IMG/VR virus record: IMGVR_UViG_3300008267_000249
Coordinates: 1 to 29,535 of that record
DNA from: a virus
Strand: one strand, 5' to 3'
DNA: 29,535 bases
A model generated the notes under the pieces. It was not told the DNA's origin, did no database searches, and saw only the letters and a program-made list of their open reading frames with translations. Made by a program: the position numbers and the translations under genes. Positions 1 to 21,710 of this stretch are shown piece by piece (the first letter of the stretch is position 1; each line of letters begins with the position of its first letter).

Positions 1-987
1 GCCCGCGTAGATCACCCGCTTGGAAATACTCAATGCTTTGAGTAAAGGAAAGAATACCCGGTCATTGAAGTTGTTGGAGTCAATGACTTTACCCCGGGGA
101 CCCGGGAAGACCAGATCCTCTGGTTTTTTACAGAAGATATGCTGCGCCAGATCCTGACAGAGTTCCGGGGAGAGCTGTACCAGTCGTCTGCTGAGCTCTG
201 TCTTGGTTTCTTTGAATACTTTTTTATCACCGTGACGTGCCGGGTCTTTGCCCCATGCTACATGAATGTTAGCACGACCTATGGACAAGTCCAGGTCTTT
301 AACCCGCAGGGCAATGGTTTCTCCGACACGGGCACCGGTGTGAAAAATGAATTTAACGAACAGGTAGTAGTAAGAATGCTTAAACGCGTTTTTGCTGGAG
401 CAATGACTGTTGGTACGGAGCGCTTCCAGGATACGCGTCATTTCCTCCATGGACAATGGTTCCCTGGTGGAAGGACGTTTGTCGCTTTTTTTGGGACGAA
501 TGTCCCGGATAGGGTTCTCCAGGATCTTCCCGGTACGGATCAACCAGTCGCAGAAGTTAAGCAGATGGGTACGACGTCTGTTGAAACTGCTGGCGCAACA
601 GGTCAGCAGGATCAGGTTACGCGCAATATGATCAGGGGTAGCGGGGTTCCACTCCAGTAACAACTCATGGGTCTTGGAGTAATGTTGGTTATGTGTCAGG
701 ACAATACCCTGTCGCAACGTCCAGTTAACAAACAGTTCTGCAAAGCTGGTACGTACCACTGGTGGTTTAAATGGCAACAACGCTTGTTTCAGCTTGAATT
801 CTGACCTGTACCGGTCTAGTGTAGTATCAAGGGTCTCAGCAAGGATGTCTGCTGTAATGAGCGCAGAAAGCGTCTCCAGAAGGGTCTTGTTCTTGTGGTA
901 TTCGGAAGGAATGGTTAGAGCATAACGCTCACCAGCGTATCGAAACCGCAGACGAAGTGTATTACCGTTCCAGGAGGTCGTGACCAT
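1..987 (-). CDS. int: Tyrosine recombinase (phage integrase), C-terminus cut by window edge
   Basis: An open frame on the minus strand starts at ATG 987 and is still open at base 1, giving 329 visible residues. Residues 1-30 are a basic beta-rich segment (NGNTLRLRFRYAGERY) like the arm-DNA-binding domains of phage integrases. Residues 80-165 look like the SAM-like core-binding domain. The catalytic domain begins near 178 and shows the first catalytic Arg in HTGARVGE (R220) and the likely beta-hairpin Lys in ETKTE (K262). DLVFPGPRGKVID (291-303) is the usual stretch before HxxR. The HxxR, H/W and Tyr motifs should lie just off the left edge. An in-frame ATG at 999 would add MGTS; 987 is preferred because the 10-bp repeats lie directly upstream of it. 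The neighbouring tRNA-like attachment core and the repeats fit an integrase next to its attP. The family call is firm; intact activity cannot be judged from this fragment. Confidence 0.93.
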   Translation of the reverse strand, partial: MVTTSWNGNTLRLRFRYAGERYALTIPSEYHKNKTLLETLSALITADILAETLDTTLDRYRSEFKLKQALLPFKPPVVRTSFAELFVNWTLRQGIVLTHNQHYSKTHELLLEWNPATPDHIARNLILLTCCASSFNRRRTHLLNFCDWLIRTGKILENPIRDIRPKKSDKRPSTREPLSMEEMTRILEALRTNSHCSSKNAFKHSYYYLFVKFIFHTGARVGETIALRVKDLDLSIGRANIHVAWGKDPARHGDKKVFKETKTELSRRLVQLSPELCQDLAQHIFCKKPEDLVFPGPRGKVIDSNNFNDRVFFPLLKALSISKRVIYAG

Positions 988-988
988 G

Positions 989-1048
989 CTCGTACCCATT
1001 TGTACCCAAACCCCAGGTCTCGTACCCGTTCGTACCCACTCGTACCCA
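989..1048 (-). repeat. Five phased 10-bp repeats, probable integrase arm-type sites
   Basis: On the minus strand the consensus is TGGGTACGAG. Copies occupy 989-998, 999-1008 (TGGGTACAAA), 1019-1028 (CGGGTACGAG), 1029-1038 (TGGGTACGAA) and 1039-1048. Starts fall on an exact 10-base register (989, 999, [1009 degenerate], 1019, 1029, 1039), so all copies face the same side of the helix. They sit between the int start codon and the attachment core, where arm sites bound by the integrase N-terminal domain are expected. Binding there could also repress int. Function is inferred; the repeats are seen directly. Confidence 0.8.
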
Positions 1049-1088
1049 AAATTGTGACTGGAACTTTCGTCTAACTGTCTGATTCTCT

Positions 1089-1139
1089 GAGCCGTTAAAG
1101 GGAATTGAACCCTTGACCTCTTCCTTACCAAGGAAGTGC
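1089..1139 (-). other. attP: Attachment-site core: 3' half of a tRNA-Thr(GGU) gene (attP candidate)
   Basis: Read on the minus strand, this segment matches a tRNA from the end of the D-stem onward: GCA, anticodon stem CTTCC, loop TTGGTAA (anticodon GGT, Thr), stem GGAAG, variable AGGTC, T-stem AAGGG, loop TTCAATT, stem CCCTT, acceptor strand TAACGGC and discriminator T. The sequence on the 5' side (1140 upward) has no D-arm or matching acceptor strand, so it is not a complete tRNA gene. Temperate phages commonly carry such a block so that integration restores the host tRNA. Repeats and phage genes on both sides favour attP over attL or attR. The anticodon stem-loop is the likely strand-exchange region. 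Confidence 0.82.
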
Positions 1140-1180
1140 AAGAGGTTCATTACCATACAGTTACACTCTAACTCACCCTT

Positions 1181-1203
1181 CTCGTACCCAATTTTCGTAC
1201 CCA
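1181..1203 (-). repeat. Two further copies of the TGGGTACGA repeat (opposite attP arm)
   Basis: Copies at 1181-1190 (TGGGTACGAG) and 1194-1203 (TGGGTACGAA, minus strand) lie on the far side of the tRNA-like core, 13 bases apart and in the same orientation as the five copies at 989-1048. Arm sites on both sides of the core are the hallmark of attP in lambda-type integration systems. Confidence 0.72.
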
Positions 1204-1401: not shown

Positions 1402-1758
1402 ATGAAATATAAGCGTTTGAGTAAAGCCGAGATCGAGGAAATGAAAGTAATGGTACAGAAAGGTACCGCTCCTGAAGATCTTGCACGACATTTTGGTATC
1501 GCTATCTCCAGTGTACACAACTACAAAAAACAGTTCAAAGCTGACGGAGTAGAGTTTCCAAATGTCAAAGGTAAGCGACCGACCGGGATGGCTAAACCGT
1601 CCGGGGTAGTCGCTGGCAAAAACCAGGTCGCAAAGACCGATACACCGCAACCTATACACAGCGGGTATAAGTTTGTTGTCAACGGGGTCAGCGTCCAGGT
1701 GGACGGGACCGCCAAGAATGTGGTCATCGGAAACGGTACCATACAGATCGACTTTTAA
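1402..1758 (+). CDS. Small HTH DNA-binding protein, candidate regulator
   Basis: 118 residues. Residues 5-48 form a homeodomain-like helix-turn-helix (SKAEIEEMKVMVQKG, then DLARHFGIAISSVHNYKKQF), of the type found in transposase N-termini and small regulators. A Lys/Pro/Gly-rich linker follows, and the last 35 residues are beta-strand-like (YKFVVNGVSVQVDG). There is no catalytic domain, so a transposase is unlikely. It is the first rightward gene beyond attP, divergent from int, with inverted repeats in its leader and its own terminator. That is where a lysogeny regulator or recombination directionality factor often sits. HTH assignment is fairly sure; role is inference. Confidence 0.72.
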   Translation: MKYKRLSKAEIEEMKVMVQKGTAPEDLARHFGIAISSVHNYKKQFKADGVEFPNVKGKRPTGMAKPSGVVAGKNQVAKTDTPQPIHSGYKFVVNGVSVQVDGTAKNVVIGNGTIQIDF

Positions 1759-19775: not shown

Positions 19776-21710
19776 ATGCAGAATCATTGGGTAATGGACT
19801 ATGAGACCATTACAAACTGCTTTGTTGCAGTTTTTGAACATTATAAGGAACAGCGACGTAAGGTCTTTGTTGTACACCACCTGGCAGACCGGTCCCAGTT
19901 TGATGACCTGGTCAGCTTTTTGCTGGATAACCAAAGCAAAGAAGAGTGGCACATCTCTTACAACGGTCTGGCATTTGACGCACAGATCACCGAGTTTATC
20001 CTGGCAAACTACGAGAACTGGCGCGACCTTTCTAACGAAGAGATCGCAGCTACTATTAAACGATACGCGACGTACGTAATCAACCGTCAGCGCGACGAAC
20101 TACCGGACTACCCGGAGTGGAAACTCTCCATCAAGCAGATTGACCTGTTCAAAATGAACCACTGGGACAACGTTGCCAAGCGCAGCGGTCTGAAGTGGAT
20201 CCAGTACGCTATGGACTGGGGTAATGTCGAGGACATGCCGCATCCGCACGACCAGGATGTAACCACCCTGGAAGTACTAGAACAGGTAGTGAGCTATTGT
20301 ATCAACGACGTACAGTCCACCAAACAGATCCTGGTTCAAAGCAAGGAACAACTGGGACTTCGTAAAGCACTTACCGAAGAATATGGTATTAACCTGTTCA
20401 GTGCTTCCGAGACCCGTATCTCTAAGGAACTGTTTGCTCATTTCCTTTCCCAGCGTACCGGTATATCCAAGTATGACCTGAAGAAGATGCGTACCTCCCG
20501 CACCCACGTGGCACTGGAGGAGTGCATATTTGACTATGTTCAGTTTGATACCCCTGTATTCAATGACCTGCTTAGTTTTTTCAGGGGTAAGGTAGTCACC
20601 GAGACCAAAGGTGCCGTGAACTATAAGCTGACCTACAAAGGTATGGACGTGTACTACGGACTAGGCGGGGTGCACGGGGCAAAAGACCCTGGTATCTATG
20701 AAGCCAAAGAAGGGTACACCATTATGACCTCAGATGTTACCAGCTTCTACCCCAACCTGGCGATCCGCAACAAACTGGCACCCGCGCACCTGAACCGTGA
20801 TCATTTCTGTGACCTGTACGAATGGTTCTTTGAAGAACGCAAGAAGTATCCCAAGAGCGATCCCAAGAACTACGTGTACAAGATCATCCTGAACTCTACG
20901 TACGGGCTGAGTAATGATGAGAACTCTTTTCTCTATGACCCTAAGTTTACCATGTCAATCACCATTAACGGACAGCTGCTCTTAAGTAAACTGTTCGAGA
21001 TGCTGGCAGAAGGTATCCCGGGTGCGGTTCCCATTATGATCAACACCGATGGTCTGGAGATGATGATCCCCACCTGCTTTAAGGAAAAGTACATGGAGAT
21101 CTGTAAGGAGTGGGAACAGATGACCCGGCTGGAGCTGGAACATTCCCAGTACCGCAAGATCATCCTGGCAGACGTGAACAACTACATTGCTGTCTTCGAG
21201 AACCCGGACAAAAAACCCAAGTGCAAAGGACGTTTTGAGTGGGAGGACCTGCATGATAAAAAGGTCGCTTCCCTACACAAGAACAAATCCTTCCTGGTGA
21301 TCCCCAAAGCGATCTACCAGTATTTTGTACACGGGGTGATGCCCGAGGACTTCCTGGATCAGAACCAAAGTATCTATGATTACTGTGGTGGGGTCAAGGT
21401 CAAAAGCAACTGGACTCTTTATGGTATTACCACGGAAGGGGGTGCCTTGAGCGAACACGAACTGCAAAAGGTTAACCGCTATTACATTTCCTACGGAGGT
21501 TACAAGCTGGTCAAGCGCAACAGAGACGATGGTCGCGAAATCCAGATAGAGTCCGGTAAGTGGATGCAGACGATCTTAAACCAGATCACCGAGACCACTA
21601 CCGATCACTATGACATCAACAAAGAATATTACCTGCAACGCATATACAAGGAGATCAACAATATCTCCCGCGTAGCAGAACGATCCTTCACACAACTATC
21701 CCTTTTTTAA
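19776..21710 (+). CDS. DNA polymerase, family B, with 3'-5' exonuclease
   Basis: 644 residues. Exonuclease motifs: MDYET (D8, E10), ISYNGLAFD (N63, D68) and YCINDVQ (Y174, D178). Polymerase motifs: A TSDVTSFYPNL (D320), B KIILNSTYG (K369, N373, Y376) and C MINTDGLEM (N423, D425). Motif C has Asn where most family B enzymes have the first Asp of DTD; I recall the same NTDG in PolB of crAss-like phages. At 644 residues it is compact. It copies the phage genome with proofreading; protein-primed use is possible given the size, but a separate primase is encoded at 15780. Confidence 0.93.
   Translation: MQNHWVMDYETITNCFVAVFEHYKEQRRKVFVVHHLADRSQFDDLVSFLLDNQSKEEWHISYNGLAFDAQITEFILANYENWRDLSNEEIAATIKRYATYVINRQRDELPDYPEWKLSIKQIDLFKMNHWDNVAKRSGLKWIQYAMDWGNVEDMPHPHDQDVTTLEVLEQVVSYCINDVQSTKQILVQSKEQLGLRKALTEEYGINLFSASETRISKELFAHFLSQRTGISKYDLKKMRTSRTHVALEECIFDYVQFDTPVFNDLLSFFRGKVVTETKGAVNYKLTYKGMDVYYGLGGVHGAKDPGIYEAKEGYTIMTSDVTSFYPNLAIRNKLAPAHLNRDHFCDLYEWFFEERKKYPKSDPKNYVYKIILNSTYGLSNDENSFLYDPKFTMSITINGQLLLSKLFEMLAEGIPGAVPIMINTDGLEMMIPTCFKEKYMEICKEWEQMTRLELEHSQYRKIILADVNNYIAVFENPDKKPKCKGRFEWEDLHDKKVASLHKNKSFLVIPKAIYQYFVHGVMPEDFLDQNQSIYDYCGGVKVKSNWTLYGITTEGGALSEHELQKVNRYYISYGGYKLVKRNRDDGREIQIESGKWMQTILNQITETTTDHYDINKEYYLQRIYKEINNISRVAERSFTQLSLF

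Follow-up and report, generated by a model that had tools for sequence, protein, structure and literature searches.

A probable phage attachment site on a tRNA-Thr 3' half, with direct repeats that form the integrase start codon

A truncated tyrosine integrase gene, a row of short direct repeats and half of a tRNA lie side by side at the left end of a viral DNA of 29,535 nucleotides (IMG/VR record IMGVR_UViG_3300008267_000249, here called the window). An earlier note, made from the sequence alone, had taken this locus for a full attP in its phage form, whose integration would restore a host tRNA-Thr. Is it indeed an attachment site, in which bacteria would it find its target, and what might the repeats around it do?

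Results

The tRNA-Thr block and its probable bacterial target

The putative attP core (1088..1139, minus strand) comprises 52 nt and reaches from the anticodon stem-loop to the 3' end (+1 nt) of a tRNA-Thr(GGU). The block begins 3 nt before the anticodon stem, stops 1 nt past the tRNA end and is 100% identical to the 3' halves of tRNA-Thr(GGT) in most of 22 genomes. These are the genomes, out of 84,980 species genomes, that contain an exact match to a 37-nt probe, and nearly all of them belong to Chitinophagaceae or other Bacteroidota. In each, the probe site lies inside a complete tRNA-Thr(GGT), usually within a tRNA cluster Thr(TGT)-Tyr-Gly-Thr(GGT) (ARAGORN on host loci). Genes for tRNA-Thr(GGU) with exactly this 3' half, which the earlier note had proposed to look for, do exist in Chitinophagaceae, and the insertion target is most likely a tRNA-Thr gene of Chitinophagaceae-like bacteria.

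A complete tRNA at this site would speak against an attP. ARAGORN called no tRNA in the window and no phage-encoded tRNA in the contig, which is a fragment of the genome. The Rfam tRNA model matched positions 1096-1157 just above its threshold (31.6 bits, threshold 29) and only in part, from model position 6 to 65 of 71; since this match lacks the outer acceptor stem, it is not a complete tRNA. When the host 5' half and the phage 3' half were joined in the anticodon loop, ARAGORN recognized the simulated attL as a complete tRNA-Thr, and neither simulated attR nor attP alone gave a tRNA. This result supports the proposed restoration of the host gene. The crossover likely falls in the anticodon loop, with its centre at 1128. 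The block is flanked on either side by phage genes that are collinear with those of relatives; the window therefore holds the attP of the free phage. Sequence comparison lends strong support to the attP reading.

Further IMG/VR contigs that share the tRNA-Thr core were discarded, as they carry unrelated integrases or whole tRNA genes. In the phage-like contigs L026, L030, L032, L033/L037 and L036, unrelated tyrosine integrases adjoin tRNA-Thr(GGU) or its 3' half; these contigs have direct repeat pairs of their own (11-12 bp) just before or at the int start, for example CTGATATTTTTCTGATATTTTTATG in L033. Several Chitinophagales genomes have tandem tRNA-like pseudo-copies beside their true tRNA-Thr(GGU) and tRNA-Ala genes (L011:6430-6760; L003, L005, L007, L010; L181/L211; L225), with a GC-rich hairpin (GAGC[A/G]TCCCG...CGGGAAGG) in place of the anticodon arm. 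Two of them in Agriterribacter humi, repeated every 96 bp, are called tRNA-Stop(UUA) by ARAGORN. Such pseudo-copies may be decayed duplications, att decoys or something else.

The integrase gene and its surroundings

The tyrosine integrase gene (1..999, minus strand) has its ATG at 999-997 and is transcribed away from the attP; 333 aa are seen, the C-terminus being cut by the contig end. The product matches PF00589 (E 1.7e-8) and the phrog_1 integrase (E 1e-29). Its N-terminal region is short and arm-binding-like, with a weak match to PF12167 Arm-DNA-bind_2 that stays below the cut-off (E 0.018). A match to PF12167 was obtained for six of eight integrases of this group, and it is clear in the relatives described below, with E values down to 9.4e-7. 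A TGAR motif holds the arginine of aligned column R224, the first catalytic Arg of tyrosine integrases; the rest of the active site, with the C-terminal His/Arg/Tyr residues, lies beyond the contig. Used as sole query, the window integrase found no relative in IMG/VR.

On the other side of the core, a small helix-turn-helix-like protein is encoded (1402..1758, plus strand). It has weak DNA-binding PHROG matches and no match in the closest relatives, and may be regarded as a candidate excisionase or regulator. Two IMG/VR contigs of 62 and 127 kb, G982 and G985, which represent the same virus (99.99%), are for the most part collinear with the window from about 1.8 kb rightwards to its end. Matching genes show roughly 36-83% protein identity. 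Neither of these two contigs has a PF00589 protein, and in G982 other genes occupy the place of int, attP and the HTH gene. Within 27 related contigs searched, a PF00589 protein occurs in only two. Most likely, then, this branch of a large phage lineage has acquired the integrase module or most other branches have lost it, a reading limited by the incompleteness of the contigs. The remainder of the window (1821-29535) is replication-rich, encoding a family B DNA polymerase (19776-21710), a DnaB-like helicase, an exonuclease and an amidase. The related contigs measure up to 131 kb and for the most part lack an integrase; a close relative among cultured phages was not found.

Direct repeats flanking the core

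Along the minus strand, two TGGGTACGAR sites precede the core and five follow it, leading to the integrase ORF. The distal pair (1181..1203) consists of TGGGTACGAG at 1181-1190 (0 mismatches) and TGGGTACGAA at 1194-1203 (1 mismatch). The integrase-side row consists of TGGGTACGAG at 1039-1048 (0 mismatches), TGGGTACGAA at 1029-1038 (1 mismatch), CGGGTACGAG at 1019-1028 (1 mismatch), TGGGTACAAA at 999-1008 (2 mismatches) and again TGGGTACGAG at 989-998 (0 mismatches). The exact 10-bp register claimed for this row holds for all five copies, one slot of the grid (1009-1018, ACCTGGGGTT) containing no copy, and the single orientation holds for all seven. Since the integrase ORF begins within the two closest copies (989-1008), the block of repeats and tRNA is not purely intergenic.

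In 500 dinucleotide shuffles of 989-1203 (215 bp), the best 10-mer reached at most 5 copies (mean 2.6; copies of any 10-mer counted, <=2 mismatches) against the 7 observed. Repeats of this type stand on both sides of the core in the window as well as in integrated relatives, and they are very probably arm-type sites to which the integrase would bind.

The GGGTAC-type motif alone is not diagnostic, because IMG/VR contains 57 generic triple arrays with 10-bp spacing, few of them near integrases and none at an int start. A search with the arm-triple pattern matched two contigs, both of which were rejected: the integrase of L122 ends towards the repeats and no integrase was detected in L121. The latter, an unrelated viral contig, contains at 190-270 a row of in-register TGGGTACGAA-like copies and an inverted pair.

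Integrated relatives in Chitinophagales

The family to which Agriterribacter belongs, taken to be Chitinophagaceae, supplied seven close relatives of the window integrase (E 8e-28 to 2e-48) from 296 genomes, and further ones were recovered when 398 genomes of the order were searched with a profile. A phylum-wide draw of 395 Bacteroidota genomes yielded two relatives and no more, and the Chitinophagales draw had already included both. Identity to the window integrase is 28-37%, others being recognized by profile search. Nearly all of the 15 relatives examined adjoin a tRNA gene (Ala(GGC), Pro, Gly, His or Met); no tRNA was called beside the integrase of L187, and the tRNA-like sequence upstream of that in L225 is broken by masked bases.

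The elements of these relatives are bounded by a repeat of half of the adjoining tRNA and have arm-like repeats at both ends. A second att copy was found in seven, at distances of 4.4 kb (G106), 8.2 kb (G233), 10.3 kb (G604), 10.9 kb (G576), 12.6 kb (G552), 16.4 kb (G539) and 20.6 kb (G165). The far end of all seven elements carries a TGGGT-type pair, spaced by 11-12 bp, oriented as the integrase-side copies and homologous to the distal pair of the window; the int start of all seven carries a TGGGT pair or trio. By this comparison the relatives display, after insertion, the same order as the window (distal pair, core, integrase-side repeats, int). In some, the integrase-side and distal repeats differ by two bases (GGGTCAC versus GGGTATC). 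The idea that prophages flanked by the tRNA half should exist was borne out in part: related integrases do reside in elements bounded in this way, but the genomes searched held no lysogen of this very phage, that is, no prophage with the window's exact integrase.

Two loci of this group deserve mention in their own right. At L224 (G539:C12), the integrase and tRNA-Ala(GGC) lie on opposite strands, the integrase facing the 5' side of the tRNA. Since the distal att copy of G539 is the tRNA-Ala 5' half (nt 1-43), it is apparently from the 5' end that this element restores the tRNA. The viral contig L234 (IMGVR_UViG_2757320416, 650-850) encodes a related integrase and has kept a tRNA-Pro 5' half next to int, with the 3' half scrambled; its start-codon repeat, TGGTCGTAAATGAGTCGT, is a diverged form of the repeat-junction ATG treated below.

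Spacing of the repeats

The distal pair of the window starts 75 nt (TGGGTACGAA) and 62 nt (TGGGTACGAG) before the anticodon centre. The first distal repeat accordingly lies at -75, compared with -85, -85, -86, -97, -118, -118 and -118 in the relatives. All eight distances are approximately whole helical turns apart (resultant 0.97 at 10.7-10.8 bp), with P about 0.003 for the four distinct distances in a post hoc test. The integrase-side offsets of window and relatives share no common helical phase. Distal spacing is 13 bp in the window, 42 nt from the core block, versus 11-12 bp and further out in the relatives, and the repeat period is 10 bp versus 11-12 bp.

The start-codon sites of the window lie at +120 and +130, those of the relatives at +121 to +223. 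Three contiguous sites (1019..1048, at +80, +90 and +100) are additional to the pair present in relatives. As the start-codon pair falls at the near edge of the relatives' range and these three copies are extra, the five-site row is an expansion of a conserved pair (two to three sites in relatives).

A start codon at the repeat junction

The integrase ATG is composed of the A of TGGGTACAAA and the TG of the adjacent TGGGTACGAG (989..1008). The same junction is found in 14 of the 15 relatives, as TGGGTCACAAA-TGGGTCAC with variants GGGTATC, GGGTCAG and GGGGTAC. The pattern TGGG-N5-7-ATGGG stands at the integrase start of 15 of 16 genes; in 620 kb of both-strand sequence taken from five of these loci it occurs only 8 times, and five of these occurrences are presumably the integrase starts. 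The two start-codon copies usually vary together among relatives and the encoded start follows (MGH, MGI, MGQ, MGT), as would be expected for a protein-binding site.

Conservation of this junction suggests self-repression of the integrase. As the last two integrase-side repeats form the start codon, the integrase probably blocks its own gene. The junction goes beyond what had been observed before in the window, and no family in which arm sites consistently make up the integrase start codon was found in the open papers searched.

Discussion

We consider it highly probable that a temperate phage of Chitinophagaceae-like bacteria has its complete attP at this locus, with an arm-bound intasome and a probable self-block of int. 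The integrase would bind inverted core sites around the anticodon stem-loop and cut in the anticodon loop of the host tRNA-Thr(GGU), whereupon the phage copy would replace the 3' half of the host gene; the host would keep a working tRNA because this copy is identical. Meanwhile, the N-terminal domain would hold the TGGGTACGA direct repeats, two distal and five on the integrase side, and such arm binding would bend and fold the DNA into a lambda-like intasome. Bound integrase would block its own gene in attP and, after insertion, at the junction of tRNA and integrase.

The repeats might instead be sites of an excisionase (RDF) or a repressor, with the HTH protein at 1402-1758 as one candidate, the core still being an attP. 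Direct repeats near int are indeed typical of RDF sites too, the HTH gene adjoins the attP, and arms lying over the int start would suit a repressor operator. We nevertheless hold this to be very unlikely: the same repeats flank the core, pairwise and in the same orientation, at both ends of seven relatives, as expected for Int arms; they track the integrase family and not any single neighbouring gene; and the integrases possess arm-binding-like N-termini, with PF12167 in most of them. It is also highly improbable that a chimeric assembly of an integrative element and an unrelated lytic phage has produced the left end (1-1.8 kb). Collinearity with the closest relatives, themselves without integrase, covers only 1.8-29.5 kb, and the int module stops just before this conserved part. 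However, the module is a complete attP whose HTH gene leads on into the row of phage genes, int is commonly gained as a module, and two of the 27 related contigs do have a PF00589 integrase.

Extremely unlikely, in our view, is that the tRNA block represents a decayed phage tRNA or the leftover of an old integration, with the real site elsewhere or with tRNA-dependent lysogeny, in which a short core does not restore the tRNA and a phage-encoded tRNA is used instead (PMC10865867). The partial Rfam match barely above threshold and the short cores of some phages (PMC10865867) would fit this. Yet identity is complete over 52 nt from the anticodon stem on, the acceptor 5' strand is absent, the repeats frame precisely the 1088-1139 block, and the integrases of relatives adjoin tRNA genes whose other half is duplicated. 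The tRNA-dependent scheme in particular does not fit a 52-nt core that restores the tRNA in the simulated attL, nor a contig, itself a fragment, in which no phage tRNA was called.

In phage lambda, P'1-P'3 make up a tandem row about 10 bp apart; unlike in the window, its int is transcribed toward attP, the core is not a tRNA and the arms lie at the int 3' end. A bivalent integrase with arm sites on both sides of the core is common to lambda and to our reading of the window (PMC4880445). In the attP of mycobacteriophage Pixie (Subcluster K3), according to passages of its report, the core overlaps a tRNA gene and a pair of arm sites on one side is accompanied by three on the other, against five in the window, all direct (PMC3203893). 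It differs in its tRNA-Lys, one extra inverted site and another integrase, and in those passages no sites are described that make up the int start codon (PMC3203893). As excerpts of its description tell, the 283-bp attP of ICEMlSym R7A has, like the window, five arm-type sites; their consensus TGKTGGTATC resembles TTGGGTATC of some relatives, and IntS represses its own gene (PMC11963761). This is a Mesorhizobium ICE with a known excisionase, RdfS, which sets it apart from the window, and the same excerpts report no ATG-in-arm junction (PMC11963761). The earlier note had called five sites in one row unusual, which stands insofar as related integrases usually have two to three; the layout as such is not foreign, given Pixie and ICEMlSym R7A.

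In KplE1, as in the window, the integrase (IntS) is transcribed away from the tRNA core, and the intS promoter, overlapping attL and arm sites, is negatively self-regulated, which is stated to be widespread among tRNA-inserted prophages (PMC2951348). Att and arm sites overlap the int start in the window in the manner of the KplE1 kind, with the difference that in KplE1 the overlap concerns the promoter (-10 box), whereas here the sites form the start codon and enter the coding region (PMC2951348). Already published are direct pairs and trios of arm sites (Pixie), a set of five arm sites (ICEMlSym R7A) and int promoters that overlap att sites and are self-repressed (KplE1).

A further proposal is tentative, and we give it somewhat less than an even chance. 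In this Bacteroidota integrase group, an arm-type site would be fused with the gene's own translation start, bound integrase would shut its own gene at transcription and/or initiation, and the five-site row might act as a graded, cooperative sensor. If true, the first residues of the protein (MG-T/H/Q/I) would be dictated by the binding site, and the row in the window would present five sites on one helical face, a possible cooperative sensor of the integrase level.

The attP ties an uncultivated phage to Chitinophagaceae-like hosts and to a single tRNA gene, and its attB, attL and attR are closely predicted. The module suggests the gain of an integrase in a large phage lineage otherwise mostly without one. 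The start-codon junction makes integrase self-repression directly testable, and the constant att layout of this small Chitinophagales integrase group (pair, core, pair on the int ATG) provides a rule for recognizing the ends of its elements.
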